Positions 13,094 to 58,808 of a DNA stretch of 64,000 bases are shown here, piece after piece. How positions within the stretch are numbered: position 1 is the first letter of the stretch; each line of letters begins with the position of its first letter. The position numbers and the translations under genes were made by a program. The DNA is from Favolaschia claudopus (Eukaryota; Basidiomycota; Agaricomycetes; Agaricales; Mycenaceae), in the NCBI GenBank assembly GCA_037176885.1, contig JAWWNJ010000043.1, positions 1,178,001 to 1,242,000 on the forward strand. Direction: 5' to 3'. The notes beneath the pieces were generated by a model that saw only the letters and a list, made by a program, of their open reading frames with translations, did no database searches and was not told the DNA's origin.

Positions 13094-13098
13094 GTATC
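13094..13098. repeat. target site duplication, left copy (GTATC)
   Basis: The five bases GTATC directly before the left LTR are repeated directly after the right LTR at 17900-17904. A 5-bp duplication is normal for copia integrases, and it marks the borders of the insertion. Confidence 0.9.
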
Positions 13099-13335: not shown

Positions 13336-13342
13336 CTCCCCC

Positions 13343-17500: not shown

Positions 17501-17662
17501 GGGAATGTGAATGTGTTGTGTGTTAGTGTTGGGTGAGGAGCGAGAGGCGTAGTGTGCGTCGCTAAAATACTTGTTTGAGCTAGTAAGGCTTGGTGATCAC
17601 TGACGTGTAGTGATGTGCGAAAGTGATTCGGGAGGATTCAGTTACGGCGGGGGCCAATAACC

Positions 17663-35910: not shown

Positions 35911-36040
35911 CTACACTCGTAAAAGCTGTCGACGGGGAAATAACAGTAACCAAAAACACTCCTTCGTTGGGCAATACATAGTACAATCATCGATATGACA
36001 TTCAACATAAGACTCGAAGCTTTCACAGGTAGTCGACGAT

Positions 36041-36997
36041 TCAGATCCCTTGTATGACCTGCGCACTAAATATCATAAATTCTTCCATCCAAGCAGTCAT
36101 GCTCTGCAGGAATGACATGAATTGGAATCGGCTATCAGATTCGCCCGTAAACTTACATGATTCGCTCCCTCAAAACCATCTTGACGTTCCAGGACAACAT
36201 TGGCCTGGATATGTTGCCCAGCCCAAAAGGCCCAAAGATCTCCTTCCCATAGGGCCATCTTTTCATAATCAACGGTGATCTATCCAGCGAAAAAGTGATT
36301 GCTATGCACATAACAACAATTCCTATCATACTACTTGCCTGAATGGTACGTCTTCCCTCAACGACAGGTCCAAAAAAACTGTACCCGGAGCACGGTGGGG
36401 TGACGCAGGCCTGGAGGAAGGGAAGACAAAGAAGAAGAAAGATTAATGCGGGACATTGACAGTAGATTGGGTGGATTCCATTACGTTGTCGCGTATGCTA
36501 CAATCACAGAAAGATGCGGCTTCCAAAGCAGAAAGCTGTTTGTCAAAGAGCTGTTGTCCAGCTGGGCCAGACGTCGTTGGACACTTGAGGGTGATGATCC
36601 AACAATTTAAATTGTCCTAGAATTGGTTCAAGGCTAACGTCGACAAAAAGACATTGCCAAAATAAGGAATAGGCATACCCGACGAGCAAGAGTGGTAACG
36701 CGATGGTCGAATATGGCCGCCACTGCGTGTACTTCGCCGACGAGCCATCCAAGATACTTTTCAGGCTGTCGTTTCACGACAGCCGCCAAACTACGACGAA
36801 GCGGAGGAGGACTCTGAGTCGTCTTATACGAGAAACAATGAATTGGGTCCATGCACCCTACTGGAAATCGTACGATCCCTGGTTAAGATATAGTCGACAT
36901 CCTTGCGATCCAGAGCCAAGAGACGGGTATTCTCCGAGGGAAAGGGAACACCGTAGCCAAGCATGCCAGGACACGCCTCAAATCAACGCCATCCATA
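36041..36997 (-). CDS. tandem family member 0 (unknown family, divergent or degenerate copy)
   Basis: The left-most of four related genes. Shared landmarks, in family order, are: DYILTRDRTI (about 36900), YLGWLVGEV (about 36750), ITLKCPTTSGPAGQQLFDKQ (about 36600-36540) followed by a GT-AG intron, HIQANVVLE (about 36200), and a short last exon ending at 36041 after a 50-nt-class intron. These match VDFVISRDRTI, TLIGEVV, FLVKCPTNAD and the NLCKDE region of its neighbours. The stretch between landmarks is poorly conserved, and the frame between the proposed ATG 36997 and DYILTRDRTI is not resolved. It may be a decaying copy. I do not recognise the family and infer no function. Confidence 0.5.
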
Positions 36998-37047
36998 AGA
37001 TTATGTGAGGTGAGATGGAAGCGGGTGAAAGTGAAACGAGTATCGAG

Positions 37048-37052
<5 letters not shown>

Positions 37053-37093
<41 letters not shown>
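37053..37093. repeat. (GA)n microsatellite
   Basis: About 20 uninterrupted GA units. Read on the minus strand it is a CT tract about 60-100 nt upstream of the proposed start of the gene at 36997, as also seen before the genes at 46518 and 61179. Confidence 0.95.
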
Positions 37094-37097
<4 letters not shown>

Positions 37098-37425
37098 AAA
37101 AATGGGAAAGAGAATACGAGAGCAGGACGAGGAAAATGACGACAGTGGACCGCAGAAGCACATCAATTTGTACTCAGACCAATGCCCGATGCAATGATGC
37201 CAAACACCGCTTAATAGAGATCGTCATCTGTCGACTCATGGGACGCCCCAATCCCGGAATACTACGCAGCATCCTATCAAGCAACGGAAAGATCTCGAAC
37301 TTCAAAAGACAATGCACAAAAGAAAAAAAAACAAAGAAAAACAACATAAGGAGAGAACAAGGGGAGGACACACGATCGAGAATGCGAGATCGACGAGGTT
37401 AATCTAGGACTCGCCAACGAAGCCC

Positions 37426-38336
37426 TCAGCGTCCTACGTCAGCATCTGCCAGCGCATGCCATTCGAGAAACCATAGAGAAAAAAACTGAGAATTTCCAAT
37501 CAGAAAAACACAAACGACCAGAGAACTAAAATCCGAAGACATACCTTGTTCGACTGAGAGTCCGCTAAAACCTGTTCATCCTTGCATAGGTTAACTGTAG
37601 CCTGAAAGATTTGACCGTCACCGAAAGCGATGTGATTGCGTAGCTCTCGACAAGGAATAGCAGCCTTCTCGTTATCAACGATGGCGATAGCAACAAATAG
37701 AGAAGCACTCACTAGAATCTCTATCAGGAGTCCGTCCTCTTTATCATCCACGGTCCAATTTTGACACACGGCGCCGGGCTGGAAGCATACCACTCAGCAT
37801 TTATTACCGCATACTTCTCGTCGTCCACGAACCAGCTCTTTCAAATCTGCCGCGACGATGTCTTGTAGCTTCTTGGTCTGCATTTTGAAATAATTCACAG
37901 TAGCGACATCGGCGTTAGTAGGGCATTTGACTAAGAATTGGACACATTCTCCACCCTTTCCCTATAACGAACAAATGATATGATGAGCACCGACTCGGAC
38001 AAGAAAACTCACCTCCATATTCAAGGGATTTTTAAGATACACGTGTCGATGATCAACAACTTCCCCAATCAGGGTTCCTTCGTACATTGGAATCTGTGAG
38101 CGATACACAGGGGACACCATATGACGAAAGAAGGAGTCTAACGCGCACGACTTGTAGGTGAAACGATCGAGAGTCTGCACCACAGAGTCGGTGTCGAGGG
38201 GAGTTCGAATAGTGCGGTCCCGAGAAATAACAAAGTCGATGCCGTACTCATCCAGTGCGATCTGGGGCGGAGAGAAAGGTCGAGAATGCACACCCACTGC
38301 AGCATCCATGTAGCGTTGCGCAAGAGAAAAAGCCAT
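37426..38336 (-). CDS. tandem family member A (unknown family)
   Basis: ATG 38336 begins MAFSLAQRYMDAAVGV. Then come GIDFVISRDRTIRTP, TLIGEVVDHRHVYL (exon 1 to 38013), CVQFLVKCPTNADVATVNYF (exon 2), PGAVCQNWTVDDKEDG (exon 3), ATVNLCKDE (exon 4) and a last exon ending DADVGR at 37426. Exon order and intron positions match members B and C. Between exon 2 and VDDEKYA (about 37830) the frame shifts by one base without an available intron, so this copy may be broken or mis-sequenced. The repeated PG..NW segment followed by a hydrophobic strand and NLCKDE could be a small beta-barrel, but this is a guess. No known domain is seen. Confidence 0.6.
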
Positions 38337-38431
38337 GCTGCAGAAGCCGAGATCGAATCACTACTTATAAATATAACTTTATCTAATCTAATCTGCAGAG
38401 TAGATTTTATATCACGTTTTACGTCACTGCT

Positions 38432-39383
38432 TCAAGTGCGCCCAACATCGGCGTCCGACAAATAGCTGTGATTCCGAACCCATAAAGTGAAGCACTGGAG
38501 ATAGAAGCCAGAAATTAACGCAGGTGTTAATAGTAGCTAGTATCAACATTACCTTGGCTATATTTCCCGGACATGAACCGTCAGACGCTTCGTCTTTGCA
38601 CAGATTCACAACTAACTCGATGTCTCGACCAACAGGATAATCGAAATGAACACCTCCATCGTTAAGAGACGTCCAGACCTGAGACAGAGGAGAGAATCAG
38701 CACAAAAGGTGCGCTTGAAAACCAACGCAAGACGTACCTCAATGACTTTCACTCCATCCTTCAAAGTCCGGGTCCAATTAACCAGCACTTTGCCAGGCTT
38801 GAAGAGGAGTTAACAGCGCACGAGGGGGTAGGAGGAAGGGGAGAAAAAGGAGATGCGACCGGGCAAAGCATAGGTACGAAGAGGAGGAGAAGAAGAGATA
38901 AGGATTAGCCATTACCGATTCCTGGCCATCGTACTCGATGATCTCTTCTAAGACGCGAACTTGTTTATCGAACAACTGGACTGTCGCTTCATCAGCGCCC
39001 ACAGGGCACTTAAGAACGATACGATTGCAATAACATCCAGATGTCTACGAAATGGTCGTCAAAAGATGAAAGGACGAAAGAATGCGGTGAAGGACAACCT
39101 CAGCCATATGCGGATTGTCGTGATATGCAAGTTCAGAGCCTACGACGGTCCCGATGAAGGACGGCCGATAACGTGGAACGCGGATACGATAGGGACTGAG
39201 ATAACGCTCGTAGACTTCGGGGTAAAACAATTCCTTGTATGAATAACGCTCGAGGGAACCGCACACATCTGTCATGGTTTTATCTCGAGTGACAATATAG
39301 TGTACACCGACTTGATCGTTGGCCAGTATAGGATGGTGAGGATCCCGTACGGCGTCCTGCAGCAGGATCGCTCGAGAAGGCAT
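38432..39383 (-). CDS. tandem family member B (unknown family, best-preserved copy)
   Basis: All exons join in phase: from ATG 39383 to about 39102, then exons carrying CYCNRIVLKCPVGADEATVQ, PGKVLVNWTRTLKDGVKVIE, VWTSLNDGGVHFDYPVGRD with ELVVNLCKDE, and a last exon CFTLWVRNHSYLSDADVGRT ending at 38432. The product is about 255 residues, without signal peptide or membrane segment. The N-terminal part has GVHYIVTRDKTMTD and PSFIGTVVGSELAYHD. This copy is the best reference for the family. Its neighbours A and C, on the same strand about 70-100 bp away, are paralogues, so the array arose by tandem duplication. Function unknown. Confidence 0.7.
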
Positions 39384-39451
39384 GAGACAAGATGAAATCA
39401 ACAAGGTCACAGCGAAGAAAGTCGTGATGAATATGGAAAGAAGGTAGAACG

Positions 39452-40305
39452 TTACACATGATGTAAATATTCGACGGCGTGCGATAAATCCCAAGCCCGA
39501 TAATCCTGTGAACAGTGTCACAATGACGATGTATGTCGAGGACAAACAGAACTTCACCTTCGCGGAAATATTTCCACTGGAATCATCTTCGAATCTTGTC
39601 AACTTCACCTCGAGCTCCACAACCTGCCCCACGTCTCGAGTCCAATCGGACGATGCCAAGGTCCAAACCTACAACAGATCAGGGAGAATATTGATATCAA
39701 TTGCAACCACACATTGATATTCTCATTCTGATCCAAAAAGGATCTCTCAAGCTTGCCGGGCTGCGCGATGACCGATTAGCCGTAAGACCGCAGGACAGTT
39801 AGCGAATCGCGAGCAACATACCGTTGTCTCGTCATCAACGCGAATGATCGAGCACAGAACCGCAACTTGGTTTTGATAGATTGCGGAAATAGCTTCATTG
39901 AGTTCCGGATCTTTCAGAACGGCGATGTGAAGAGGGCGACCTGTTTCCTAGCAGACCCAAGCAAATATTGTCACAAGAGCTATTGTGGCGTGGGGCGCAA
40001 GTGATGCGACATACTTCATCGACGCTATCAATAACGGCGACTAGGAGTCCAAACAACCGGACGTGAAGTGGATGCACATCACGCCGTACAAAAGGGGGAA
40101 GTGTCGAAATCCTTTCGACGACGACGGGCAACGGTGGAGATTGTAAATCGATGAACATGAAAGCTTCCCGAAAGAATTCAGTCTTCCTGGTTCGCTCCCT
40201 CAGCCAATCAAAATCTGTCTTGTAGCGCAAATGAGCTAGAACGCGAGTAGTCCTATTCCGAATCGAAGTGCTCCCCTCGCGAAAGCGTTCGAATAAAGTG
40301 GACAT
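39452..40305 (-). CDS. tandem family member C (unknown family)
   Basis: ATG 40305 starts MSTLFERFREGSTSIRNRT. The first exon (to about 40013) differs from A and B but contains VRLFGLLVAVIDSVDE where they have TLIGEVV. Exon 2 has GRPLHIAVLKDPELNEAIS and SIIRVDDETT. Exon 3 has PGKLERSFLDQNENIN. Exon 4 has VWTLASSDWTRDVGQVVELE and GNISAK. The last exon ends EYLHHV at 39452. Introns lie at the same places as in B, which ties it to the family despite low identity. All joins are in phase, so the copy looks intact (about 230 residues). No recognised domain. Confidence 0.65.
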
Positions 40306-40472
40306 GAGGGTTGTCTTGAAGATCGAAAGTACCAAATAGAACACATTTGATTGGCCAGTAAAACCTTAATTGTCAGATCTACGTCATCGTCGCACTTATA
40401 ACTTCCGGACCTACAGATATCTATCATCTTCTCGGATCTTCTCATTGTCTTCTCATGTGCTCCATCAGTTAT

Positions 40473-40577
40473 CCATCAACCTGACTCGGGAACCCTGAGC
40501 CGGAGCAATTTGAATTCGCTCGAAAAAAGAAAACATCAGCCTGACTCGGGAACCCTGAGCCGAAGCAATTTGAATTC
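40473..40577. repeat. direct repeat, two 45-bp copies spaced 60 bp
   Basis: The unit catcarcctgactcgggaac...gagccrgagcaatttgaattc occurs at 40473-40517 and 40533-40577 with two or three differences. It lies in the roughly 640-bp gap between the four-copy family and the nucleotidyltransferase-like genes, the longest gap in the left half of the block. No coding sequence is seen in 40306-40945. Confidence 0.85.
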
Positions 40578-40945
40578 ACCTGGACAAACGGAGCACGGAA
40601 GGAACTCGAATTCCCCAATCAAAGTATTGTAGCTCAAGCACGCGTGCTTGGAAGGCATGAACTGTTAGCGAAAGCAGTACACTGCACAAGGAGATGGAAG
40701 TGGATCACTGAGTGGTTGCACGGGTCATCGACACCAAAGAAAGGAAAAGTCAGGACTTGGCATTATTGAGCCATGACGACACCACTGACTCACCTGAATG
40801 TCCCCGAGAAAGGTACCAACCCAGAAACAAGAGGACTCAGGAAAATGGAACTGTTTGGGATGTTATGGATACGGTGTAATGAACAGAGGGAAACTCGGAT
40901 GTGTAAGAATAGAGATGAATATCGGTAGAACCTCCCAATGACTGG

Positions 40946-42416
40946 TCACTCGTCGTTGATTTCATCATCCTCGTCACCATTGAAAGTCAGAATATAATCC
41001 ATGTCGTCCCAAGGCGTCACTTCCAAGAGATTTACTGGAGGACGAGGCATCTTGAGAAGAGCGGCAGCAAGCCGTCGAAATATTTGATACTCTGTACGCT
41101 TGTAAGGTTACCGCAACGGTAAATTCAAACGCACGTACGATAAGAATAAATGCTATGGACGGCATTGTCGCGCACAAGTCCAGATTCACAAATGCCGACA
41201 GGAGCAAGGGTCCAAGTGAACACCGGTGTAGAGGAGCGTTTGAAGTCGGGGATGGTAGAAGGAAGTAAATCTATATGAAGGCAGCCATCATCGTCAATTG
41301 TCCGCAGAGTAGCAGGACAGTCAATGTGCACGCCACATTCATGAGGAAGTGGATGATCGTACTCAAAAACGAAGCCACGGCCTTGATATTTGTGAAGAAT
41401 GCGCCACATCTGCACTTGACCTTCGAGAGTGTTCCCTGCCAATCGCATCGAGGAAGGTGTAGCCAATGCGACGCCCTTGCGAACCCGATTTATCTCGAAA
41501 TGAGAAAAACGATCCCAAGAGATCGCGCCCCTGGGAGCCGTCGAATGAAAAGCGAGAATTACATCCAAAGCATAGTCGGAATAGGTCTCCACGATGTTGA
41601 CCTGCTTCCCCGATGCGTTCCGCAAGGTGAGAACTCGACGAATACCAAAAACATCGTCATAGTCTCGACTTGCTTCGAAGGAAAGATGATAGGCACAAAC
41701 ATCGCGCATGAAGACCATAGCATCATCGGCGGATCCACGAGGGCAATAGAAGTCCAAATCATTGGGCACAAAGGTCCCTTGGAGTATAGCAGCAATGACC
41801 GAGCCAGAAAGCCGTGTACCGGTCGCAGCGAGCAAAAGCTTGATGTCACCGTACGATAGGTGAAACAGGCCCAATGCATGGATAATCATGTACTGAGTCA
41901 AAAGTTGGCGTATGTGCAGGTCCGTTCCATCCAAAGCAGAAGTATTATATTGAATAAGACGTCGAAAGACTGCGTGCCATTCGGATTAAAGCCTATATGA
42001 CAGTCAGTAGTCGAATCAATAAAGAAATCAGAGTAGTGCACTGAATGCTTACGATGGAGTTTAATGGATTGCATCGCCTGAGGTGCAGCTACTGCTCACG
42101 CCGTTAACTTCTGAGCGAAACGAGCGAAAGGAAAACTAACATTCAGAGTCGATGGGAGAGTCTACATATTTCTGCAGAAAGCGATGGACATTGCGACCAG
42201 CAATTCTACTGCGCAAGGATGTGGAAAAAAGCTGCTTCCAGTCCATAAATTTCATGTAGGTTTCGATGCGGACAGTGTACAGAAGCCTGCCGATGGACAC
42301 CTGCATCGCGGAAAGCTTGAAAGCATCAGGGCCTATGGAACGTAAGCAACGTCCGCAAGGTTTGATACGCAGAACTGACGCTGAAGGAGGTTCGCAGGCT
42401 CATGGGTGTCCGACAT
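40946..42416 (-). CDS. nucleotidyltransferase-like protein (signature intact)
   Basis: Several short 5' exons (ATG 42416, MSDTHEPANLLQR; then FKLSAMQVSIGRLLYTVR with SRIAGRNVHRFL; then AAPQAMQSIKLH) lead to a long exon, about 41930-41137. Its key motif is LSGSVIAAILQ followed by GTFVPNDLDFYCP. This fits the polymerase-beta nucleotidyltransferase signature G-S-x(9-13)-D-h-D. Such enzymes transfer nucleotides to nucleic acids, proteins or small molecules. Later come DVILAFHSTAPRGAISWDRF and HKYQGRGFVFEYD, and an acidic last exon ending DDEINDE. Near 41955 one base seems to be missing between FNPNGTQSFDVLFNI and LDGTDLHIRQLL. I recall similar proteins as large families in mushroom genomes. Substrate and role are unknown. 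Confidence 0.6.
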
Positions 42417-42506
42417 AATGGGAGAAGGAACAAAGCGAAGGTGCACATAGTCACTCTTATTACATAACGAGAATTTGTCAGATACGTAATTCCAATCGCG
42501 CGATTC

Positions 42507-43433
42507 TCAATCGGTAGAAATCTCCTTCTGAAGGAGCAATGCTACCAAAGAGACGATGAAGGGAATAAATATATATACAGAGAAAGATATGCAACTCACC
42601 AGAACCGGCAATAACAGACCCAGGCACAATGTGCAGCGGATTTTCCGAATTTGACTGCAACAGTCTGACCTCAGACCCTTCAGCATTCTGCAGAACCATT
42701 TCACAGCGAATGCCGCTGCCCTCGAACACAAACGCAGAGACTTGGTTACAATATCCACATGCATAGTTCAGGTACTTGGCCACAGAAACGAATTCCCCTT
42801 TAGCACAATAAAAGTCGACACGGTGCGATAAGGGACGGTGACCGAGCAGACTGTCCACAAATTCGCCGGAGACGACGGCCCCCGGTCACTGAATGGAGCA
42901 AATATAAGTCGCCCACGCACAAGCCGAACGATTCAAGATTGCAGCTAATGTGATATTGAACCAAAAGACCGCGAAGTCGCTGATCATCTGGCGAAACGAT
43001 GTAGTCCGAAACAGGAGGCAGCAGCGCGCGCATCAGATTGTTCATAACCAGCGGGTCCACACTACGGTGTCGAGCAGGATTGAGTGCTACAAAACGGCAG
43101 TCAATCTCGCATTAGAGGAGACGCCAGAGAAGACAAGGAATTACGATGAGAGATAAAATCATCTTGTATCTCGGGGCGAAGTACTATGAGAAAGCCGCAT
43201 AAGCAGATGTAATTCTAGATAGAACGAGAGTAAAGTTGCCTACCATCTTGTCGCAAAAGGTCATCGAAACGCTTGCCCAACCAGACATGGACGTTACGGC
43301 CAGCCATACGAGTTATTGCTGATGTCTGAAATAACTCGCTGTCATCCATACATCTTAAGTCTCGCTCCACGGCAGCATTCCAAAGCATTCGCTTAACGGA
43401 GTCCTGCATTGCAACTAAAGTTCTGAGGGACAT
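42507..43433 (-). CDS. nucleotidyltransferase-like paralogue, degenerate and shorter
   Basis: ATG 43433 begins MSLRTLVAMQDSVKRML. SAITRMAGRNVHVWLGKRFD matches the AGRNVH region of the gene at 40946. Two small exons and a longer one (from about 43072, VDPLVMNNLMRALLP) follow. At the nucleotidyltransferase site the residues read VVSGEFVDSLL...RVDFYC, so the second Ser and one of the two Asp are lost. One extra G in a run of five (about 42868) breaks the frame just before this motif. The protein ends early (42507), without the C-terminal half seen in its paralogue. Catalysis is unlikely. It may be a decaying copy or may keep only a structural role. Confidence 0.55.
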
Positions 43434-43717
43434 GGACGTAGAGAGTGACTTGAGAGAAATGATGATCAATATTATGTAATCGATTCAATGGCCACCCCGC
43501 CAAACGAAGAGCGAGTGACGCTTATCTGTCTGTATACTTCTGTATACTGCCACTGTAGTGACGATAGAACAAGCAAAGGACAAAAAATGCGAAGACAAGG
43601 AAAAAGAAAGGGATACGATGAAGAGAAAGGACGTGTGATAGAAAAGAAAAAGAAAAACAATAAGCTGACTCGGACCCCACTTTCCGTCCAATATACTGAG
43701 AGAGAAAGAATCGCGAC

Positions 43718-44921
43718 TTAGAATTCAACATCCAGAGAACTAAGTCACTATCAGTCGGAAGTGGCTCGAATATAACAGGCGATAAACTCACAATGAGCGA
43801 CCGACCACAGCATCCGAATTATCAACAGGTCTCGCATAATCAGAGACTCGCTTTTCAAAGAAGTTGGTCTTTCCAGGTAGAGAGATCATATCCATGAAAT
43901 CAAAGGGATTCTGATCATGAAAGACCTTGCCAACACCAAAAGCCTGAAGCAACCAATCCGCCACGTAGCGCACATATTGAATCATGAGCTTAGGGTTCAT
44001 GCCCAATAAGTGCACCGGTAACGCTTCTGCGAGAGATTAGCATCGTCAACAACAGAAAACTGTCCTATCATACCTCTTACAAAGTCGCATTCAATTGCGA
44101 CAGCGTCCTGCACGATGGCGATTATAACATCGCGATGTGGACGGGAGAGGAGCAAGGAATGAATGAGAACCGCGAACTGAGTGTGCATAGCTTCATCTCT
44201 GCTTATGAGCTCGTTTGAGAAAGTAAGCCCCGGCATCAAGCCCCTCTTCTTGAGCCAGAAAATAGATGCAAAAGAAGCAGAGAAAAAAATTCCTTCCACC
44301 ACAGCGAAAGCCACTATCCGCTCGCAAAACGGCCGGTCAGCGCCGAGCCAACGCATGATCCACCACGCCTTCCGACCAATGGACGCTACGGTTTCCGAGG
44401 AATGGAACATCTTGTCCTTGAGTTGCGGGTCGCGGATATAGGTGTCAATTAGAAGAGAATAGGTTTCCGAATGAATGTTTTCCATCATTATCTGAAAGCC
44501 ATAGAAGCAGCGGGCTTCAGCGGATTGAATTTCCACCGCAAACCGCTGCACAAGATTTTCATTGACCATACCGTCTGCTGAAGCGAAGAACGCCAAAACG
44601 ATAGTGATGAAATGTCTCTCATCGGCATTCAATTTCGTGTCCCAATCGACGAGATCATGAGAGAGATCCAGTTCTTCTACTGTCCAGAAGCAGCTCAAGG
44701 CCTGCTTGTACATATCCCAGATCTAAAGGCAGGAAAACGAGAAAGCTGACCAAAATGCGAGGGGGAGGGAACAAAAGCATACGCACTTGAGGGAAACGAA
44801 GAGGAAACAAGACGAAACGCTGATCATCGAGAGCGAGCAGCGGTTCATTGGAAGCCTCTAAGCGCTCATAAGGACAGAGAACAATGCCGCCGACGAACAG
44901 CTCACCTGGAGAGAGATCCAT
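43718..44921 (-). CDS. ribonucleotide reductase small subunit (R2)
   Basis: R2 holds the di-iron/tyrosyl radical that lets the large subunit make deoxyribonucleotides. Exon 1 (44921-44785) is short and replaces the usual longer N-terminal extension. The main exon starts [17 protein letters not shown]. All metal ligands and the radical tyrosine are present: FASADG (Asp), MENIHSETY (Glu, His, Tyr), [10 protein letters not shown] (Glu), [10 protein letters not shown] (Glu, His). The third exon gives [10 protein letters not shown] and [17 protein letters not shown] 22-nt last exon (43739-43718), reached by a GT-AG intron, encodes the C-terminal tail FSLDVEF that docks onto the large subunit; without splicing the tail would be lost. 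The protein looks complete and active. No large-subunit gene lies in the window, and the neighbours are fast-evolving unknowns. Confidence 0.92.
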
Positions 44922-45349
44922 AGAGTGTCAAAGAGAAACCGAAGTCTTCGAAAGCGCAGGGATCAATTCGGCAGCTGATGAACAATCAAATATCAGAGCA
45001 TCGCCATGCACGAATCATGCCGGGCCGTCTTAAGGATGACAACCGATCAGAATATCATATCAGCTGACAGCGGTCAAAGCAATAAAAGATTGCTGGACTA
45101 TTCATTTCGACAAAAAAGGCGCCGACAACAAGATGTAGCCTATTCAAGAAATGTACAGCCAGAATAGAGAGGTCACTCGATTTAAAGCCAAGTAAACTGC
45201 AGCTGCATGTTGAACGCTTTGAATAAAAAGAGACAAGAAAAAATAGGGAATGGACAACTAATGCGCGTGTTGAACGCATACTGACACGGGGAGGAGCACT
45301 CGCTAGCCATCGTCTGATCAAATCACTTGATAAAAAAGAAAGAAAGAAA
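44922..45349. other. intergenic within the block, nothing recognised
   Basis: Spacer of about 430 bp upstream of the R2 gene. No repeat or gene was seen. Confidence 0.35.
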
Positions 45350-46518
45350 TCAGCGACATGGGGAATGGGTACAACTCGAGGAAGAACTCACTCCGATAAA
45401 CGGATAATAATTAGCTCCATAATTCTCGCACTCGGAATTGAGGCAAGAATCGCCTAGCCTCCACTTGATCTTCGTGTCGAGGTAGGCGGATTTGAGCGTA
45501 GCGGTATCATCATCGACAAGTCGAAAATGATATACTCCGTCGTCTCGACAAATATAGCGCCAAAGAATAGGACAACTCCAGCCGCAAGGGCTGTCCCACC
45601 CGGTATTGTCGATGGACTTACGTTCCCCGCGAGTATGAAGAGTTTGACTGACAAACATAGGAGGATAGTGCCACGCATCGAGAGCCCTATAGCTGAACGC
45701 TTTCTCGACGTAAAACACAGTCAGGAAATTCTTGGTGATCAGACGCATATTGGATGTGTGCGGAGCGATCACGACCGCTTCCATGACGCAAGGACCAGCG
45801 GTTTCGAGTAAAACGATGGTGCGCTTCTACAGTAAATGATGAACGGATGATACGATGCATAAGATTGAAGACTGACTTCGAATAACTCGAAACTCCATCT
45901 GGCATGGACATGAGCGCGCACAAACTCGTCCACAGGAAGTGACTTGGACACGAGATTGGGATTAAGGGAGTGAAAGTATGCACTCCATGCAAGGAACGTG
46001 CCGCGAGGGATGCATATATTGAGGTTATTGGGTTTCCAATCTTTGGTTTTCACAGTGCGAGTGGTATACACGACCACCGACCCGTGAATGCCAGAATGAT
46101 AATTGTCGAGATGGTCCCAAAAAGCAGTCAGTCGTTTCAAACGCTCAAGACCGTTGATATCGGGACCACAGAGATAGTAGTCCAATTGAGCTTCGATGCG
46201 GCCACGATAATAGTTGCGAGAGAACGTCTGAGAAGAATGGTCTCTGTGACGGTCAAAAGAAGGAAGGAATTCAGTAAAAAATTGTGAGTAGATGGATAGG
46301 CGAACGTACACCCTGGACAGCTGCGCAGCCTCTTTGAATCCCACAAGCTTGAGAATCCTATCCATGAGATCAAACTCTCTCAAGAATTGCTTGAAGGTGA
46401 GGAAGGCCGAAGCGGGGGGATGTGCGACGGAAAGGCCAGAACCGTTGCCGCCTCCGTCGCCAGTGGACGCATTACTGTTTACCGCTTGCGAAGCAGAAGC
46501 ATCGGCAGCCTGATCCAT
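45350..46518 (-). CDS. nucleotidyltransferase-like paralogue with Asn-substituted site
   Basis: Three exons from ATG 46518: MDQAADASASQAVNSNAST with a Gly/Ser-rich start and FLTFKQFLREFDLMDRILKL, then a long exon (about 46260-45885), then 45834 to the end. The site corresponding to G-S...D-L-D in the gene at 40946 reads GIHGSVVVYTTRTV..NNLNICIP. Both Asp are replaced by Asn, so catalysis is unlikely. Further conserved parts are RGTFLAWSAYF, VVIAPHTSNMRLITKNFLTV and WSCPILWRYICRDDG. The end is ambiguous. Either the frame runs to TGA at 45350, or a final GTGAGT intron places a stop directly after YYPFIG. A CT tract touches the start codon upstream. Confidence 0.6.
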
Positions 46519-46520
46519 TT

Positions 46521-46521
<1 letters not shown>

Positions 46522-46567
<46 letters not shown>

Positions 46568-46591
46568 AGGGAGAGAGAGAGAGAGAGAGAA
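46522..46591. repeat. compound (GA)n / G-run microsatellite
   Basis: Two GA tracts with a run of about ten G between them. On the minus strand this is a CT tract ending four bases before the ATG at 46518, so it must form the 5' leader or core promoter of that gene. Confidence 0.95.
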
Positions 46592-47143
46592 GACGAGAAT
46601 CGGAAAGATGACCCAACTGATTATTGGAACGCGTCGCACTGAAAACAAGATCTCAGCCGCCCACCAGATCTCAGATTCACAAATAATTCGACATCTTCGG
46701 ACTGTGATGGCCCCATGTCGCGTGCCATCGCGTAAAGCTCGATGGGGAAGACCGACAGCGTCATGATGCAAGCAGATTCAAGTGCGGTCGAGACCTCCCC
46801 ACAACCGGAGGTAGGCAAAATTCGGAAAGCGCACAACGCGTCATATCATAGATTAGGAACAGATGATACACGAGGCTGCACAAAGTAAAGCTTGAAGGGA
46901 CGAGGACAAGGAAAAAAAGAAAGAGGGAGATGAAGGTAAAAGATAGAATAAAGACAATATAGATGATGTTCGAGAAGTCATCCCACCCCAATTCGTTCCC
47001 TCTATTTCGATGTGAACAGGTTCCATTCACTGATCCCCGAAGAAGGAGAGAAAAGGAAGAAAGAACGGTAAAAAAAAAGAAAAGAAAATAAGGAAGAAGT
47101 CGACCTGGGACCTGGACAGAGACTGATTGTAGCGCAAAGCAGC
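46592..47143. other. intergenic within the block, nothing recognised
   Basis: About 550 bp with low-complexity A/G-rich parts (46880-47100). Only shadow frames are present. Confidence 0.3.
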
Positions 47144-47782
47144 TTAAGCACGAAGCATTCCATTCTCCAAACAACTATGGAATCGTCAATGATTGGGGAA
47201 AACAGGGTGGCAGACGCACTTACTAACGGACGAGGGCAGATACAAGGGAATGTTCTTGAGGAGTGATATCCAAAGGGACTTCAGTATCGTTGGTGTGCTT
47301 CACAACCAAGATGTTTCCAACCCATTGCACGTTATCAGCGACAGAGTTAATGCTGACCAACTCTTCAGCCTCTTGGTCGACGAAGAAGATCGTGTAAGGA
47401 TTCTCCAGCTCCCTGCCCTCAAACTCCCGAACGGTAAGGCGGCATCGTCCCATGTCGACGACGTTAGGGGATCCAACGTAGGAGATCCACAGATGTATAT
47501 TAAGATCGTCGACAGTCGCGGGTTGGTAGAGCTGCGAGCCGAAATTGAAAGGAACGGGCACGGAAGTGGCACCGGGGATTTTGGACGCGAGCAGCGTTCC
47601 CTTGACATTATTGTTCAAAAAGTGCTAAGAAACATGAGAAGCATGAAAGGCGTCGAGCTAAGAAGGCTTACGGGCACATTTTGGATGTGGCGACAACATT
47701 TGTGGACATCCGCGAGGGTGTATGGGGTGGGTTGTAAGATTTTTTTCCCAGTGGGTGCGGCTGAGATGACGACGCGATGCAT
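47144..47782 (-). CDS. hypothetical protein, 180 residues
   Basis: Three exons (47782-47672, 47624-47224, 47174-47144), all in phase. The protein starts MHRVVISAAPTGKKILQPTP and continues with YTLADVHKCCRHI, ATSVPVPFNFGSQLYQPATV, GRCRLTVREFEGRELENPYT and WVGNILVVKHTNDT. It has no signal peptide or membrane segment. Its beta-rich look (alternating hydrophobic residues) is similar in style to the four-copy family at 36-40 kb, but I cannot align them convincingly. It lies between a RING gene and a nucleotidyltransferase-like gene on the same strand. Function unknown. Confidence 0.6.
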
Positions 47783-47902
47783 CTACAACGACGAATAACG
47801 ATCAAGAGTAAAGGGAAAGAGGACAGTAACAGGATTAAATACAAGAACAATCAAAACAGCTTATATACCTCTCCAGTATTTCCATTTAAGGAAATCGACT
47901 AG

Positions 47903-48545
47903 TTACAAGGGCCGTGAGGGGAACGAAAGCCCGCTGAAGTCGTAGGTGACTTCGGAAGAATCCCAATCGCCATAAAGCCGTAAAATACTCTTTTCTTCCA
48001 CGAACATCCGAAAAGGCGGCCTATCCATTTCCACACGACACTCAGGGCATCGCCAATCCCGCTCTAGCCATAACCGAATGCAAACGAAACAATGTCCGTG
48101 ACCGCACACATAGCTGGAAGACTGAGATCAACAGGAGGAAGTAGAAGGCCACTATGACTCACGAAACCGGATGACTTTTCAAAGACAGACAAATAGCGCA
48201 GATATACTCCTCAAAAACTTGGAGAGGAGGATCGGGGCGAACGGATCCGATCCATAGATCGTTGGCTTGCAAAGCAACAGGGCGGTATACACGACTTCCT
48301 TCAAAAGGAACATCGGCCGCAGGAGGGTCTACGTTAACCAACGGATATGTGGTGCCCGCAATCTGAGTCGTGCCCGCAACTTGAGTCACCCGTTGGCTAC
48401 CAGCGTAGACACCTCGAGAACGCCATTCAGAAGGAGAAAACATAGTAACAGGGTAAGGGCGACCGACGGTGGTGAGAGGGCTGGACCGGCTGAAAGCACT
48501 GGGAGCGTCCAAAGAGACTCGACGAGTGGATGTGATGGTGGTCAT
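47903..48545 (-). CDS. RING-finger protein, copy 1
   Basis: Two exons (48545-48163, 48113-47903), about 196 residues. A Ser/Thr/Pro-rich N-terminus precedes a C-terminal C3HC4 RING: CAIC, then after the intron CGHGHCFVC, and CPEC. All eight zinc ligands are present with normal spacing. RING domains bind E2 enzymes, so the product is probably an E3 ubiquitin ligase. After the RING comes the tail LRLYGDWDSSEVTYDFSGLS. The next gene upstream is a paralogue with the same intron position and tail. The ATG at 48545 is the first in frame after the upstream gene. Confidence 0.8.
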
Positions 48546-48677
48546 TGGGAGAGTGAGAGTGACGCACAGCAAAATCTGATCAACACAAGTCAACGACAAT
48601 AAACAAAGCCGTTGATAGACCTTTTGGGTATTTGGGTTTGTATAAAGGAACGCAGGATGAAAGAGAAAATAACAAAA

Positions 48678-49570
48678 TCATACACTTCGAGTAGTAGGAA
48701 ACACTAAACCTTCCCAGATATAATCCACTTCACTGTGATCCCAATTGCCGTACAACGGAGACACAACATCCTCTACGGCGGAGGATCTCGAAGGCTCTTG
48801 CATTATGGCGGCTCGACATGCAGGACATTCCCATTGATACTCTAGCCACACTCTGATACACGCATAGCAGCCGGTATGCCCGCATTCCAGCCTAAATTCG
48901 TCAAGTACGAGAAGGACGAATAAACAAATGACTTACGACACTGGATGCGACTGAAGATTAGCACATACGGGACAATTCAATCGTGGATCGGTAGACTTCA
49001 TGAGCGGCGGAAATACATGGCCACGGTACAAGTCCTCGGGAAGCAAGGGCTTTATTCTGACCCATCGACTGGCGGAGGAGAAGTCGACTGCCTGAGGGGG
49101 TCTGGACAAACTCGAAGGTGCCATAGCGACAACTTGAGGACGGTGCAAGCGTGGATTATATGTGGCGAACAAAGACGTGGAAGACCCGGGCGGACCGGCC
49201 AACGGTGTATTGCGCGGTCCAACTCTTATTATGCGAGGCAACGCGACTCTGACTCTTTTTTTGCGAAGAGGAGTAAAGTAAGACTGTATGGGAGAGATAC
49301 CAGCGGTACGATCTTTCGACGCCTTTGACTTCTTTTTCTTCGTTCCGATCACGACTGTGGAACCCGAAGCGAGGGAATCGCGAGGAGCGGTCGGTAAGTC
49401 ATAATCCTCCATATAAACCTGCGCTGCACGAAGACAATCAAAACAAGAACATAAGCACTATGAAAATAAAACAGGCCAAACAACAGAAAGCACATACAAT
49501 CCGCAGCGGGAGCTGGAAGAGGCTCAAGAAGGGGCTCGGAATTTGAGACCAGATGTGGCGGCGATTGCAT
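48678..49570 (-). CDS. RING-finger protein, copy 2
   Basis: Three exons. A short first exon begins at ATG 49570 (MQSPPHLVSNSEPLLEPLPA). The second starts near 49426 and contains a basic patch (TKKKKSKASKDR) and FTPLRKKRVRVALPR. The third carries the second half of the RING and runs to 48678. Zinc ligands: CPVC, CGHTGCYAC, CPAC. The intron splits the RING at the same place as in copy 1. The tail SPLYGNWDHSEVDYIWEGLV matches copy 1, so the two form a tandem pair. It is a likely ubiquitin ligase. The basic patch might be a nuclear signal. Confidence 0.8.
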
Positions 49571-49734
49571 ATGAAAGTGGTTATAGGACGAGGTTATGGG
49601 ACGAGTGGGAAATGATGCTAAAGAAACTATGAGACAAACCGAAAAGCACCGAGACTCGGAGAGCCAGTCGACCAGCAGTTGAACACGCACCTTTTGTACA
49701 ATGCAAGCCTGGTAACCAATAAAGAGTGACCTAC

Positions 49735-52197
49735 TCATACAGTCATCAGGGCAACCTGATTACAGACACCAATAACGACGTCATCCATCTGACCACTTCG
49801 GGGAAGGATCAGATCTGCACAGACTTTCCACGGGGAAAGTCCACAATTGTCCTTCAATATCGACGGTTCCATTCGCCGCAGTAAGCCCAATCTTTCCCAA
49901 CATAGACCAATCTCCGCGTAGGGACGGCCCAATGACCACAACATACACACCAACGATCTCTAAAATACATTGTGCCCGCTCTCGAGAAACGACTCCCTCG
50001 AATTCATTAGTGGTCAGGGGAAAGACACTAGATATCTTGAAGTGCTTGTCGGTGACAACTAAGGCTCCCATCCGAACCTTCACTGACCCGTTGTGCGTGC
50101 GTCTGATCTCCGGAAGAGTGTGGATGACACCAATTTGACCGTCATAGCGCCCCTTCCAACCACCCCCCTGAATACAAACATCCAGATAAGTCCCACGCAA
50201 AGCAGGACGCAAGAGCCAATGCAGGGCTGCCAATGACCCGTCATCGGTTTGCGACACCTCAAGGACGTCCTTGACCAGAGGTAGGCGGTCGTAAACTACT
50301 TCCGGCCAGACAGAAATATCGGGCAATGAACCGAGTGGAAATTCCGATGAATGAATTGCGATATCCTGGACATGAGGCAATGCCCGAACTGCCTCTCGTA
50401 TAGCACGTAAACGACGAATCTGCTGTGGCGAGCATGACGAATATTGTGTCAAATGCACACCAGTGCTACCCAAAAACATCAGACGTGGAAGAGTAAGAAG
50501 TAAATCAGACACTTACTGTCGCTCCCGGACATTGCGCACCACCACCTTCTCGACAGTATTCACAGCTCTACCTTCTGTCTGAATCCAGACGTGACAGAGG
50601 TCGAAGCTGGTACTAACGACCATGCCATAAATGGTCCCAATAATGGCATGATATGCAGTAACTTCTATGTGAGCGTATGGATCTTTTCGAGGCAGACGAG
50701 GCCACGCGTCATCATGGGTCGCATCGGGTGGAGGACATATACGAGCGTCCTGCTCTCTACAACAAAGTCGGACACTGGACCAAGGCATGACCTCCTGTAA
50801 ACGCATCAAAAACGGCCGTTATAGAATTAATCTGGCTAAGCAGAGACATACAACGGAGGCCCCTACGGCCCCAGAGGAGAGATTGTTTGCAGCGAAGAAC
50901 TGGATCTGTGGAGGATATTTGTTTCAGGGAAGAAAACCAGAAGCATGTTATGAGGCATAATCACATACGTCCTGACTACCCAACAAGGGCGGGGCAGGCG
51001 ACACAGACAACGAAGGTGGTAATTTGCTCGTCATTGTAACACGTCGTCGCTCCCAATCAACCGCTAGAAGCCAACCTCTAGCCCCACTATAACGACCTAT
51101 GATGACTTCCACCAAGTCACCGACTCGGTGATCCAACGCCACCAGACCGCTTGACACGATAATATTTGTGGAACAATGGGACCCGTTCTGTACAGACAGA
51201 CAGACGGAATCATCACCGGGTTCGTCACCGTCGAGGGACTCCACCGAAGCCACATAATATTTCTGACGATCGAAAACCCGCACTGCGTCCCCAACTCGAA
51301 CTCGCAACCGAGTGCGGATGAGTTGGATAGCGTCCTCGACGCAACAGGACAAGGCACTGGAAAGGAAGTCGTCGGCATGAAAAGCAAAATGATCAGGGAT
51401 GATCGACGGATGTAACAACGGAGATGTTGACCACTTTTCCAGTTCAGACATGTCCGGCAACACGTCTTCAGACATAAAGTCACTGTGAAGCACATCGACA
51501 ACCATGAAGCCATAGCTGTAACATGCGTCGCCTTCAACGCGAAAGATGGTAGGGTCTGATCCTCGTTCGGAATCATGCAAGTGAAGTCGTTGGACTGACT
51601 GACAATGCGAGGCAGCTTTAGGACACTGACCCGAAGAGTCTGCAATTTCGACAGCTTTAGCGACAGGCAGCACCCATCTAGGAACGATATAAAGACGCTG
51701 CCAAGCAGCATGAGTGTCGTACGTCGGGATCCAAGCAAGATCACGATGATACTCGTCATCCGGAGAACATAATCTGACCCATGCCGGGGTAGATAATCGA
51801 CGCACAGAGGAGGATGACATCAGCGACTGAAAATCACCAAAGGATATCTGCGCGGGGCGTTGGGGAGAACACGCAAAGGACAATCTCTGCGCAACACCAT
51901 AGGCCGTGTTACTGCCGACACATTCGAGATAGACGTAGCCGGGAGAGAAAGGATTGGTAAAGGCAGCAACAACGCCCTCAAAGGAATTTTCGGCATTCAA
52001 GATGTCTCCAAGGACACGAAGTTCACGGCCTAACTGGGATAATTTGAGTAAAAAGAAAGAAAAAAATGGACGCACAGCGTCCCCCCCCCCTCACCAAAAG
52101 GAGCAAATCGCCGCACGGAAAGGATGAAACCCACCTGAACCTCAATGCGCCATATGGGTACCTCGGAATTCACAGAAAACTCTTGGCCGAAGTTCAT
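49735..52197 (-). CDS. Spt5-like NGN/KOW protein
   Basis: Spt5 binds RNA polymerase through an NGN domain and nucleic acid or factors through KOW repeats. Here an NGN-like region is visible from the proposed ATG 52197: VPIWRIEVQ, a GT-AG intron, then LGRELRVLGDILNA and NPFSPGYVYLECV. KOW-like units follow: VGDAVRVFDRQKYYV (about 51260), RVGDLVEVIIGRYSGARGWL (about 51110), and later GRYDGQIGVIH and VYVVVIGPSLRGDW (50150-49900). The usual acidic N-terminus and C-terminal repeats of Spt5 are not seen. Exons upstream of 52263 are possible. The last exon is uncertain: two frames end at 49781 and 49735. I recall such divergent Spt5-like proteins from other mushroom genomes. The role is unknown. Confidence 0.6.
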
Positions 52198-53204
52198 GGG
52201 CGATGCGCGGTATGCGACACTACCCGAATTGAAGACGATGGAATAAACCGTAAAGTCGAAGTGCTACACAGGGAAGTCAGTCGCACCACCTCTAATCGTC
52301 TTCAAGAACTATTTGTACACAGGATATTAATATCAACGACAAGGGAGGCATCGACAATGAAGAACATACAATTGTTCACTGGCTAGAAACCCTCAAAACC
52401 CTCAACATTTCTTTGAATGACGACGAATTCTGAAAATCGCAGACATAGTCAGATTTATGGATTAGAGCAAATAGCCGACACACACTCAAGGAAAGTCCTA
52501 ACCGTGGCCGAATTCTGGGGCCTATTATTCTTCGACGCCGAGGGACATTATAAGGACGCACTATCGACGGGCGGAAGCAAATCTAATGGAAAAGAACAAG
52601 GAGCACTACGTTGATCGTCGTGACAGGAAACCAACGTAAGGTCAAACCGGACCGGAGCTCCGCCCGGGAATTGCCGCGCTGAATGGGTGGAACATATGAC
52701 TCATGAGAGATTTAGGGAGGGCTTTCGGAATCGGAATCGGAGAAACCGGCATAACACGTGGATGACGGCCTTTGCTTATATCACGTCGGACTCTGTCGGA
52801 CTCGGACTGCAACTCGGAAATCGCTGATCTCATTATTCGGCCCGTGTTTGAGGGTTCAACGCTGGAGTCGGGGAAGAGCGAAATCAAAGGGAAAAGCGGA
52901 TAGGCAGTGCCAACGACTTTTATTGCACGGGGCTTAAAATTCTGAAGGGCAGCAATATCGCAGGAAAGTCTTATCACCAATGCCGCCCATCACAACGATC
53001 AGAGACCCGCCATCGGCCAGCCATGACCTGTCGCCTTGAGAATGTGGGCATGTGCGGTGGAAATCAAAAACGTAGAACTACGGGATGCAATATGGAGCTC
53101 AAAGGACTCGCATTCCATACAGTCACTACATAACAAGATGCTATCAAAACGGGTTGAACCGCATACAAACGATGTTGAACCGCAAACATGGAGACAAAGG
53201 CCAA
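52198..53204. other. spacer, possible 5' exons of the Spt5-like gene
   Basis: A minus-strand frame near 52980-52645 (with RIMRSAISELQSESDRVRRD) could be an upstream exon, but I found no consistent splice path to the NGN exon. Nothing else was recognised. Confidence 0.3.
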
Positions 53205-55378
53205 TCATGAGGACGACGATGCTGCACCAATCTTCTTTCCTGCACTACGAGCCCTCTTTGATTTGACTGAATCAGCGTCAGGCACATCAACATCAATATC
53301 GACGACTGCGAGAATATGTCGGTTGAAAGAAAGTGCAGACGGAAAGGCTGATACATACCTGAACCTTGAGACAGTGACGACGATCCAGAAGGCGCAGCGG
53401 ATTGCGACGACCCAGCGACTACAGACGACCCGGGACGACCAGCAGAATCTGGCACGCGAGCCGACGCAGAACGAGAACCAGAAGAACCACCACGGACACT
53501 CGAAGAAGGACTCGCGCCACTTGATATATCAGCGTCACGGTCGTTCTTGCTCGGAGTTTTCAAAGAAAATGAAGCGAAGGCGGCTGGAGGCGGAGCTGAA
53601 ACAGTAGAGGAAGATCCATCAAAACCGCGAGGGATCAGCACTTTCCGCTCTTCAATAGGAAAATCGGACTTTGCCAGTATCTTAATACTGTGAGCATTGA
53701 TCTGATAGATCTAAAAATGGTGTCAAACAAATGTAGAAGACGCTGATGGTAATTCAGTACTTCTCACCTTTCTTTTTTTGGGACGGATCGCCCCCTTGGA
53801 GTCGGTATCGTTCATCACGAAAATATGCAGAGACGCATCAACAAGCACAAGCGTCCCAGGACGCAAACAATCATAGAAATCCCAAGGAGGAACGAGTGGA
53901 TCTTCGCTATCTGCTGGATGCCTAGCCGTAGCATCCCGCACGTCCAACTGGACCAACATAGCTTTAACTTGCCGAAAGTAATCACCTCCGTAGTCGCAAA
54001 GCAAGCGAGGATCATAATACGCGCCCAAACGAATCTGGGAAGCTGAACAACCCATAAAAAAGGAAAGAAAGAAACAAGCGTAGAGATGAGAAGAAAGAAA
54101 AAAAAAATTGAACAATAGCGCAGCAACAGAGATTTAATACATACCGTCAGGCTTGCGAACACTTGATTCGGAACTTCCTGAATTCGCTGCGACAGCAGGA
54201 GAGTTCGTAGACGGTTGAACAACGTCGTCCAATTTGCGCTTACCCCGGCGAGCGGGCGAGGCGGTTGCTGTGCCTGCAGACGCAGGAACCTACACAAGGT
54301 CATTCAATTTCAACCACAAAGAGCAACATCAATGAACGGTGGAAGAGCACGCACCCCGTATTTCGGCAACATGTGCACCATTATTATGTCGTCCTGGCCA
54401 CTGTCTTCTTGGATCGATCGCATCCAAGGTCGCAGAATATATTCCTAGAAGAACAACAGGGAAAGAATGAAGAACAAGAATAAGGAGAGGAGGAAAAATA
54501 GAAGCACCTGATATGGAACAGCGCGGGATTCGAGAGCCAACTCATGTTCAATAGCATCTCTTAGAGGCACCGTTTGATTTTGAAAAAAATTAGCCAATCG
54601 ATTACACGCCGAGGTGGGGGTAACAAGCGCCAAAACATCCTTCACAGATTTCTTGCTGTCATCGATCGGCTGAAACTACATTGAAAGTCAGATAATCGTG
54701 GCATAAATTCAACACAAACTTGCCGGTTCGCTAGAATAATAGTTGCCAATGGCACGCAACACCGTACCCTGAAGCGAGCCAGCAACTTCTCCAACGATCG
54801 CAGTACGAAAATCAAGCCCCCCATCAGATGTCCGAAATTCGATGTTATTCGAGTACTGAGGTTGATGCCGAGTGAAGTCATTGGGACAATCGACGTTTCC
54901 AAGAGCTGAGTTTCCCATAGCCTGCAAACTCTCCACAAGCTCGTCATAGAGACCAGATGTAAGCCGCTCCTCAAACACTAAATACGCAAGTCAGTTGGCG
55001 AAAGTTTCAAAAAAGAAGAGACTACCTACCAGTGGGTTCAGGACTGCCTTCAGGAAGGGACATTGGACAGAAAATAAGAAACAAACAGACAAAAGGTTCA
55101 AGATTGCCAAGAAAAGCACAGACGCAATAGACCAGCGACGAAACAAAACACCCTACAGACGGAAAAATCTCACCGCTTTTAACCTATGAAAAATTCCAAC
55201 CCTCCTCAGGAAATCGGTATTGCGAAAGCGTCATTGATATCATCATCGACAGATCCAGAAAGCGATCGAGATTAAGATGAGACAGAGAGAGAGAGAGAGA
55301 AAGAAATAAAAAAAGCGCACCAGTAGTATCCAAGGACACCGCGATGGGGCCACAAAAAGAAGACGACCCCAAAATCAT
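53205..55378 (-). CDS. large Ser/Pro-rich protein of unknown function
   Basis: The presumed first exon is at ATG 55378 (MILGSSSFCGPIAVSLDTT). The next exons are not fully resolved. From 54977 the protein is clear: GLYDELVESLQAMGNSALGN, IEFRTSDGGLDFRTAIVGEV, DAIEHELALESRAVPYQEYI, a basic stretch GKRKLDD, then RLGAYYDPRLLCDYGGDYFR, PPWDFYDCLRPGTLVLVDAS and ILAKSDFPIEERKVLIP. A long Ser/Pro/Gly-rich tail and a short basic last exon (VKSKRARSAGKKIGAAS) end at 53205. The composition suggests a nuclear protein with a structured core and a disordered tail. I recognise no domain. It is the first gene of the co-oriented block. Confidence 0.6.
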
Positions 55379-58301: not shown

Positions 58302-58808
58302 TTTTTATTTCGAGGAGGGTGTGAGTGAAAATACAGTGGCATGGGTTCCCACTAGCAAAACGCGATCAAGCTTATAAGAAGTGGTCGCAGCAAATGCGCA
58401 GCGAGGAAGCCCAGCGAAAGTAGAATGTTGCCATATAATTATAGTGCCGCAGCGAAGCCCGTCAATATAATTCCAGCGGGCGTTTGAGAAGGCTTATTCA
58501 AATTGGAGGAAGTTGATTGCAAAAGAAGAGGTGGCGGATAAAAAAACAAGAATGGTACTTGCACGCATCACATTACCGTTCCAGAACGAGTTCCTCAGTA
58601 TATAGGAAGCATTGAAAGTTCACAGCGAAGAGGGAGCGATTGCGCATTGATTCGGTACCGATTTGAGAAAAGCACATCGAGTGGTAAAAGCAGTATACGG
58701 ACTATGTCGGAGTGAATGATAGATATTAGTAGTTCAACAAATCATTACTCTGCGGCTCATTCCGGGCCCCATTTGTTTGGTTCGGTACCATGGATAAGGA
58801 AGCCTCCT
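58302..58808. other. intergenic, nothing recognised
   Basis: Spacer between two minus-strand F-box genes. No repeat or gene was seen. Confidence 0.35.

Follow-up and report, generated by a model that had tools for sequence, protein, structure and literature searches.

The window analysed here, 64,000 nucleotides of the Favolaschia claudopus genome (contig C43:1178001-1242000), contains part of a 43,464-bp mobile unit that is almost certainly a giant Helitron. The unit begins at window position 30291 and ends at coordinate 73754, beyond the window end, this right border corresponding to position 1,251,754 of contig C43 and lying in the 10 kb that directly follow the window (L029). An earlier note on this DNA had drawn attention to a 19-kb block of co-oriented genes (36-55.4 kb) around a ribonucleotide reductase small subunit (R2) gene, and had seen no transposase; this holds inside the window, but the mobility enzyme RepHel is encoded just outside it. 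The block proves to be the middle of the unit, so that its proposed borders do not stand: the co-oriented minus-strand run continues to 73.2 kb, through three further genes and then RepHel, and a single plus-strand F-box-like gene lies at 32.3-33.4 kb. Helitrons are known above all for shuffling pieces of genes, and usually hold little beyond their own enzyme or scraps of genes. Here, the block very probably belongs to a gene-rich, autonomous Helitron of the Helitron2 kind, with cargo that may support the replication of the element itself.

The borders were mapped by aligning five other copies from the 264.6-Mb F. claudopus assembly against the window. Four of the five share the left edge at 30290/30291, the fifth (C247) being truncated by a contig end, and all five extend past the window end. 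Left ends were found at 15 places in the genome: in the 14 that were tabulated an identical 41 bp, TAATGACCGTAGGCCCGCTAGCGCGGCAAAGCCCACTAACG, is each time preceded by a host A, and the fifteenth (C25:96320) has degenerate first bases. The genome search returned 14 right ends. All but C45:956753, C97:309813 and C97:314602 were read, and these 11 have ...CTTACGTTAGTGGGAA in common, followed in each case by T. With three more right ends read from a second lineage, described below, the junction falls between A and T at 14 of 15 left ends and at all 14 right ends read, and there is no target duplication at the ends read. Since flanks are shared among C6, C237 and C333, and between C333 and C115, the 28 conforming junctions are equivalent to some 25 independent ones. 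A search of the genome with the joined flanks of the window copy recovered a paralogous empty site, 81% identical, which runs through the junction with neither insert nor duplication.

Five copies of this near-identical set (family A) have both ends: the window copy on C43 (43.5 kb), C237 (43.6 kb), C6 (43.7 kb), C333 (43.6 kb) and C115 (44.0 kb). C45 and C247 are 99.9% identical, and C333, C237 and C6 99.8%, with around 99% between the two sets; the window copy is some 97% identical to all other near copies. Copy pairs that are 99.8-99.9% alike point to recent amplification. The R2 region is present at several places at 97-98% identity and at further, diverged places at 65-79%. The earlier note had judged the block to be no ordinary chromosomal neighbourhood, and had proposed looking for the same order at unrelated loci and aligning copies for borders and terminal repeats. 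Both searches gave a positive answer, the block recurring with exact borders at several sites, more than chance would give, except that the termini are those of a Helitron and not long terminal repeats. As far as sequence goes, its suggestion of an active large mobile unit is also in keeping with the exact-border insertions, the near-identical pairs, the open RepHel and the related empty site.

The same note had alternatively suggested a domesticated unit or a selfish island. In one such history, a chromosomal segment would be repeated by segmental duplication with RepHel as a chance neighbour. The flanks that C6, C237 and C333 have in common and a repeated array on C8 (period ~17.4 kb) would suit this history. 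Nevertheless, we regard it as the least probable of those considered, and extremely so, given that the borders fall on the same base, between A and T, at unrelated sites, that a paralogous empty site exists, and that in the two lineages the 5' end is found ~3.3 kb past one and the same point of RepHel. The element also has Helitron termini at both ends and a Helitron mobility enzyme.

Read 5' to 3', the element follows an A with TTCCCACTAACG and closes with CATTA before a T. The right border is taken as the 5' end because RepHel runs inward from that side, on the minus strand. Palindromes are visible at both termini, and an asymmetric terminal inverted repeat is present, CCCACTAACG occurring 2 nt from the 5' end and, inverted, 31 nt from the 3' end; such a repeat has been described for Helitron2 (PMC5148889). 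The ends, 5'-TTCCC and CATTA-3', depart from the 5'-TC and 3'-CTRR canonical for Helitron1.

RepHel has Pfam matches to Helitron_like_N (PF14214, 2.4e-33), PIF1 (9e-19) and DUF6570. Its HxH and YxxxY positions (H1033, H1035, Y1209 and Y1213 in the numbering of P0122), which we take to be the catalytic residues, are invariant in all 16 aligned RepHels. The combination of an HUH Rep domain bearing two tyrosines (Y2) with a PIF1-type helicase places the element in the Helitron superfamily; the endonuclease domain that marks Helentrons has no Pfam match in the 2,479-residue frame. Identity to its relatives is 41-51% over the searched region among the 120 listed of 246, four of those listed coming from Agaricomycetes and the remainder largely from environmental collections. 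Copy C6 likewise has an unbroken frame, which differs by 142.5 synonymous and 72.5 nonsynonymous changes (proportions, pS and pN, of 0.080 and 0.013, respectively). Copy C45 is interrupted: some 17 kb of foreign sequence, inserted at the window-equivalent position 69302, splits its RepHel, one of its right-end matches is cut off at 956753, and another part of RepHel is found with a right end at 935823-941596.

A second lineage, B, represented on C106, C17 and C25, has a left terminus ~92% identical to that of the window copy, and genes with ~70% DNA identity. Its gene order, T, NT2, R2, X46, NGN, U1 and RepHel, is that of the window. The two-ended lengths are 59.8 kb (C25), 50.9 kb (C106) and 46.1 kb (C17), figures that possibly include nested insertions. 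The distance from the RepHel match outward to the 5' end is 3,285 bp in each of the three. The C106 and C17 stretches were chosen near the positions predicted by this spacing in C25, and their 5' ends, at 622408 and 204270, each read CACTTACGTTAGTGGGAA followed by T, in flanks unlike each other. On C5, where the R2 DNA identity is 68%, a row of X47-X46-R2-NT1-NT2-T is preserved in the order and strand of the window. Exons compared with these old copies (four at C5, and U1 at C106) are near saturation at synonymous sites, with pS of 0.72-0.96, and their amino acid identities are 35-85%; U1 is 78% identical between the window and lineage B over the part compared.

Linkage was also scored at 19 older R2 loci. 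Eight of these have RepHel within 50 kb, with the side and strand as expected, and 11 have U1 in the position and orientation expected, both being present at eight and neither at eight; at none of the 19 does either gene lie on the wrong side or strand. The chance expectation per locus is ~0.004 for RepHel and ~0.002 for U1. The binomial tails treat loci as independent and, since C106 and C17, like C133 and C34, are close relatives, the true significance is lower than that computed. Second pieces of the same locus were excluded beforehand (9 of 36 R2, 12 of 52 RepHel and 23 of 50 U1 matches), as were nine family-A copies from the U1 count. Conversely, R2 is absent within 60 kb at 24 of 40 RepHel places, which are either ordinary Helitrons or parts of family A split by insertions or contig ends.

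In a pooled comparison of 14 cargo models between the window copy and C45, pS was 0.039 and pN 0.013, with introns differing by 3.7%. The resulting pN/pS of 0.34 is a rough figure: the T2 model is out of phase at its start (pN/pS above 1), that of T1 comprises two exons only, those of NT1 and RINGb have lengths that are not multiples of three, and wrong-frame controls gave ratios of 1.03 and 0.59. In the same pair NT2 differs by five synonymous and no nonsynonymous changes.

These observations bear on the strongest competing account, in which the end pair of an ordinary short Helitron mobilised a pre-existing chromosomal cluster and carried its host genes passively. End bypass of this kind is the accepted route of capture (PMC6431247, PMC5148889), short elements of 6.2 and 7.4 kb have both termini in common with the giant element, and most RepHel places, as just noted, are without R2. 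We nonetheless consider it improbable: order and strand are the same in the C5 cluster and in two-ended elements of two or more deeply diverged lineages, the proteins are conserved although synonymous sites are near-saturated, and the element-type R2s of F. claudopus group on long branches with four from Mycena, separately from the host-type R2. The likely course is a single old capture with co-evolution thereafter; passive carriage is not likely.

The R2 gene noted earlier is real, with a Pfam match of 5.1e-82 on one exon. The NCBI model P0001 from F. claudopus is its closest database protein (100% identity over 98%). Residues 21-346 of 346 align with the solved structure of M2 B (3hf1, E 7.6e-124) and residues 24-346 with 1h0n, both mammalian-type R2s. 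Inspection by eye shows that the class Ia metal- and radical-site residues and the C-terminal tail agree with solved R2s; the residues concerned are presumably those that bind iron or R1, with FSLDVEF, or the ILDADF that follows a likely intron in the C5 copy, as the R1-binding tail. The element R2 is thus apparently intact and a predicted class Ia enzyme. A tree of 121 R2s, built by a quick method with SH-aLRT support only, places element-type R2s in one starred group of 11, consisting of seven F. claudopus rows, one of them the window itself, which does not differ from P0001 in the columns compared, and R2s of Mycena galericulata, M. maculata, M. leptocephala and M. crocata, the last having lost one acidic site residue (by eye). 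The host-type R2 of F. claudopus (P0077) falls outside this group; with branches of such length, the tree program warned of long-branch joins. In M. galopus, protein P0121 unites a relative of NGN (38%) with a relative of RINGa (39%) in the order of the window, which looks like the annotation of two adjacent genes as a single one. From the Mycena R2s and P0121 it follows that the cargo row exists, at least in parts, outside Favolaschia.

Besides RepHel there are about 15 genes, modelled with a home-made gene finder and hand editing: three of F-box/leucine-rich repeat (LRR) type, U1, NGN, RINGa, RINGb, X47, X46, R2, NT1, NT2, T1, T2 and the plus-strand F-box-like gene (Table 1). The models support the co-oriented block: between 36 and 55.4 kb they contain introns, are separated by short spacers and all lie on the minus strand, no plus-strand gene exceeding a gene-finder score of 8. 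The two RING genes of the earlier note are likewise upheld. Two of its three nucleotidyltransferase-like genes, NT1 and NT2, form a related pair, and the predicted fold of NT2 (mean pLDDT only 46) matches nucleotidyltransferases; the third, X46, has no BLASTP similarity detectable to either. An NCBI protein, P0048, is the end of X46 fused to R2. Where four tandem copies of one family had been described, two related genes, T1 and T2 (BLASTP 1.3e-14), could be modelled, besides a fragment near 36.9 kb. The gene taken for an Spt5-like NGN/KOW factor has a Pfam match that is sub-threshold, so that the similarity to Spt5 is unconfirmed; NGN is used here as a name. In the plus-strand gene the frame shifts between two open reading frames, indicating an intron or damage.

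Table 1. Features of the giant Helitron, in window coordinates (those above 64000 lie beyond the window end)
Feature	Position	Strand	Details
Giant Helitron, part within window	30291..64000	-	Element 5' to 3' on minus strand
Element 3' terminus	30291..30331	-	...GCGCTAGCGGGCCTACGGTCATTA, then T; palindrome ~12 nt from end; inner arm CGTTAGTGGG 31 nt from end
F-box-like gene	32329..33412	+	Sole plus-strand gene seen; Pfam F-box-like 1.1e-4, below cutoff
T2	37516..38678	-	Family without assigned function, second tandem copy; gene model, approximate
T1	38822..40305	-	First tandem copy of the same family; approximate model; C5 has a T-type homologue in order
NT2	40946..42306	-	Nucleotidyltransferase-like; 40% identity at C5
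NT1	42380..43409	-	NT2-related (BLASTP 1.5e-14); model length not a multiple of 3
R2	43718..44921	-	Small subunit, 346 residues, ends FSLDVEF; 4 exons: 44921-44787, 44722-44074, 44026-43792, 43739-43718
X46	45350..46518	-	Adjoins R2 upstream, also in old copies; C5 locus 55% identity in 3' exon
X47	47223..47782	-	Gene without assigned function; homologue in order at C5, 35% identity
RINGb	47907..48545	-	C3HC4 RING; Pfam zf-C3HC4 type 3.3e-7; model 3' end approximate
RINGa	48684..49738	-	C3HC4 RING; Pfam zf-C3HC4 type 4.6e-8; adjoins NGN also in Mycena galopus P0121
NGN	49781..52197	-	Spt5 Pfam match E 0.093, below cutoff; also at C106, C17, C25
U1	53205..55063	-	Strongly conserved cargo gene without assigned function, between R2 and RepHel
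F-box/LRR-like gene 3	56538..58148	-	LRR trace 0.029 only
F-box-like gene 2	58809..60345	-	Pfam F-box-like 5e-4, below cutoff
F-box-like gene 1	62630..64000	-	Start at 64426, beyond window; Pfam F-box-like 0.0027, below cutoff
RepHel	65756-73195 (L029:1756-9195)	-	Unbroken 2,479-residue frame, just outside window
Element 5' terminus	73754	-	TTCCCACTAACG; right border, in L029

The cargo also invites comparison with viruses. Large DNA viruses commonly encode R2, nucleotidyltransferases and RING proteins, and in Teratorn a herpesvirus is fused with a piggyBac element. An analogous fusion of a large DNA virus with a Helitron would account for the one-strand gene array, and the earlier note had itself raised a virus-derived segment. 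We consider this very improbable: the termini and mobility enzyme are a Helitron's, the R2 is closest to mushroom R2s, R2 and other genes have introns, and no capsid, packaging ATPase or DNA polymerase was matched by Pfam in the models and frames scanned, a survey that left T2, X47 and some frames outside and that divergent proteins could escape.

Taking the element as a giant Helitron, its movement may be sketched by analogy with known Helitrons. RepHel would nick the 5' terminus between A and TTCCCACTAACG and unwind one strand, strand copying would end at the palindrome-bearing 3' terminus between CATTA and T, and the circle or strand would be inserted between an A and a T elsewhere. A stable, operon-like row of some 15 apparently whole, mostly intron-containing genes travels with the element and is kept by selection, unlike the gene scraps of other Helitrons. 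Some large DNA viruses pair their own R2 with the R1 of the host. A similar pairing here could supply the deoxynucleoside triphosphates (dNTPs) needed to copy a circle of 43-60 kb when hyphal nuclei are not dividing and, since rolling-circle copying of that length needs far more dNTPs than does a 6-kb Helitron, would be the simplest reason to keep R2; we rate this role as evenly balanced between right and wrong. It is rather unlikely, though conceivable, that the RING and F-box-like proteins redirect host ubiquitin ligases against silencing or repair factors. U1, close to RepHel, might be a transposition cofactor.

A broader and tentative proposal, more likely wrong than right, is that Mycenaceae hold a distinct class of giant rolling-circle replicons of 43-60 kb, virus-like without a capsid, self-feeding and self-shielding and maybe existing as extrachromosomal circles, with a vertically kept core of RepHel, U1, R2, nucleotidyltransferases and RING/F-box genes. 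Whatever the fate of that proposal, an element with long-selected whole genes, the apparently intact R2 among them, would be a gene-rich replicon comparable to the giant elements of other fungi. It would make a dNTP limit on rolling-circle transposition testable, and the nearly identical copy pairs (99.8-99.9%) are candidates for direct transposition tests in the fungus.

Several observations weigh against this picture of an autonomous, cargo-supported Helitron. Single-gene signals of selection against the near copy are weak (synonymous/nonsynonymous changes of 5/7 for R2, 4/10 for X46 and 2/4 for X47). RepHel was not found near 11 of the 19 older R2 loci or near the family-A locus C8:219376 (40 of 69 candidates scored), and some R2 clusters may sit outside complete elements. 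For U1 no homologue was detectable in Pfam or PDB sequences, and the models of NT1, RINGb, T1 and T2 are approximate. Predicted folding of the terminal hairpins is no more stable than in shuffled sequence (z -0.12 and, for the 3' terminus, -0.89). C6, C237 and C333 have the same right flank over the 40 bp read with differing left flanks, and the left flank of C333 is that of C115; the right flanks of C6 and C237 are alike over 4.1 kb at 98.75%, below the 99.85% of the element itself. Some copies may therefore be assembly chimeras or ectopic recombinants, single junctions remaining valid.

Among known giant elements of fungi, the Starships of ascomycetes similarly carry many cargo genes. They are mobilised by a tyrosine recombinase captain and make target duplications; here the enzyme is RepHel and there are no duplications, and no DUF3435 captain was matched by Pfam in the models and frames scanned (T2, X47 and some frames lay outside the scan). 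Closer parallels are found among Helitrons. FoHeli elements of Fusarium oxysporum, of the Helitron2 type, likewise encode RepHel, insert at a short A/T-rich site and have an asymmetric terminal inverted repeat with the inner 3' copy ~20-40 bp from the end (here 31), FoHeli1 and FoHeli2 sharing palindromes at both ends; they differ in terminal letters and preferred site and measure ~5-11 kb, against 43-60 kb with some 15 further genes here (PMC5148889). HELPO1 of Pleurotus ostreatus, also an Agaricomycete Helitron with captured genes downstream of RepHel, has one to four captured genes and, in part of a table, lengths of 6.6-13.7 kb, unlike the present element (PMC4289320); neither 'ribonucleotide' nor 'F-box' occurs in the text of that paper. 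Maize Helitrons also grow large, up to 39 kb, by accumulating host sequence, but with up to nine gene fragments, whereas most genes here look whole and selected; the same source gives 6-14 kb for fungal Helitrons and describes acquisition of full-length genes as exceptionally rare (PMC6431247). Helentrons with OTU/VTD deubiquitinase domains resemble the element in carrying ubiquitin-system activities, for which interference with host ubiquitin-dependent control has been proposed, but those domains lie inside the RepHel frame beside an AP endonuclease, whereas the RING and F-box-like genes are separate (PMC9741609). No such element turned up among the records listed by searches of the open literature.

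Other features of these elements deserve mention. Two short elements, C8:2602340-2608499 (6.2 kb) and C91:201555-208959 (7.4 kb), are those that have both termini in common with the giant element; over the 1.5 kb read, the C8 element has unrelated content, and both are possibly non-autonomous riders. A segment of the window at 33799-40577 is only 90-91% identical to four other copies (86% at 34.3-36.3 kb), its neighbours being 97-98.5% identical, and looks as if exchanged with a different lineage. At C25:96199-96317 the 5' end of a lineage-B element is followed, after ~120 bp, by a second 3' terminus, that with degenerate first bases, and the spacer resembles by eye the left flank of the first element. 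C8:130082-229505 is an array of repeated T/NT and R2 pieces with a period of 17.36 kb, perhaps a tandem duplication inside an element.

Outside the Helitron, the window contains a glycosyl hydrolase family 11 (xylanase-type) gene on the minus strand at 1472-2566 (5.6e-56). A Copia long terminal repeat retrotransposon occupies 13098-17899, with an open gag-pol frame of 1,417 residues (RVT_2, 4.2e-69); it is apparently young, since the 238-bp direct repeats that flank it are identical.

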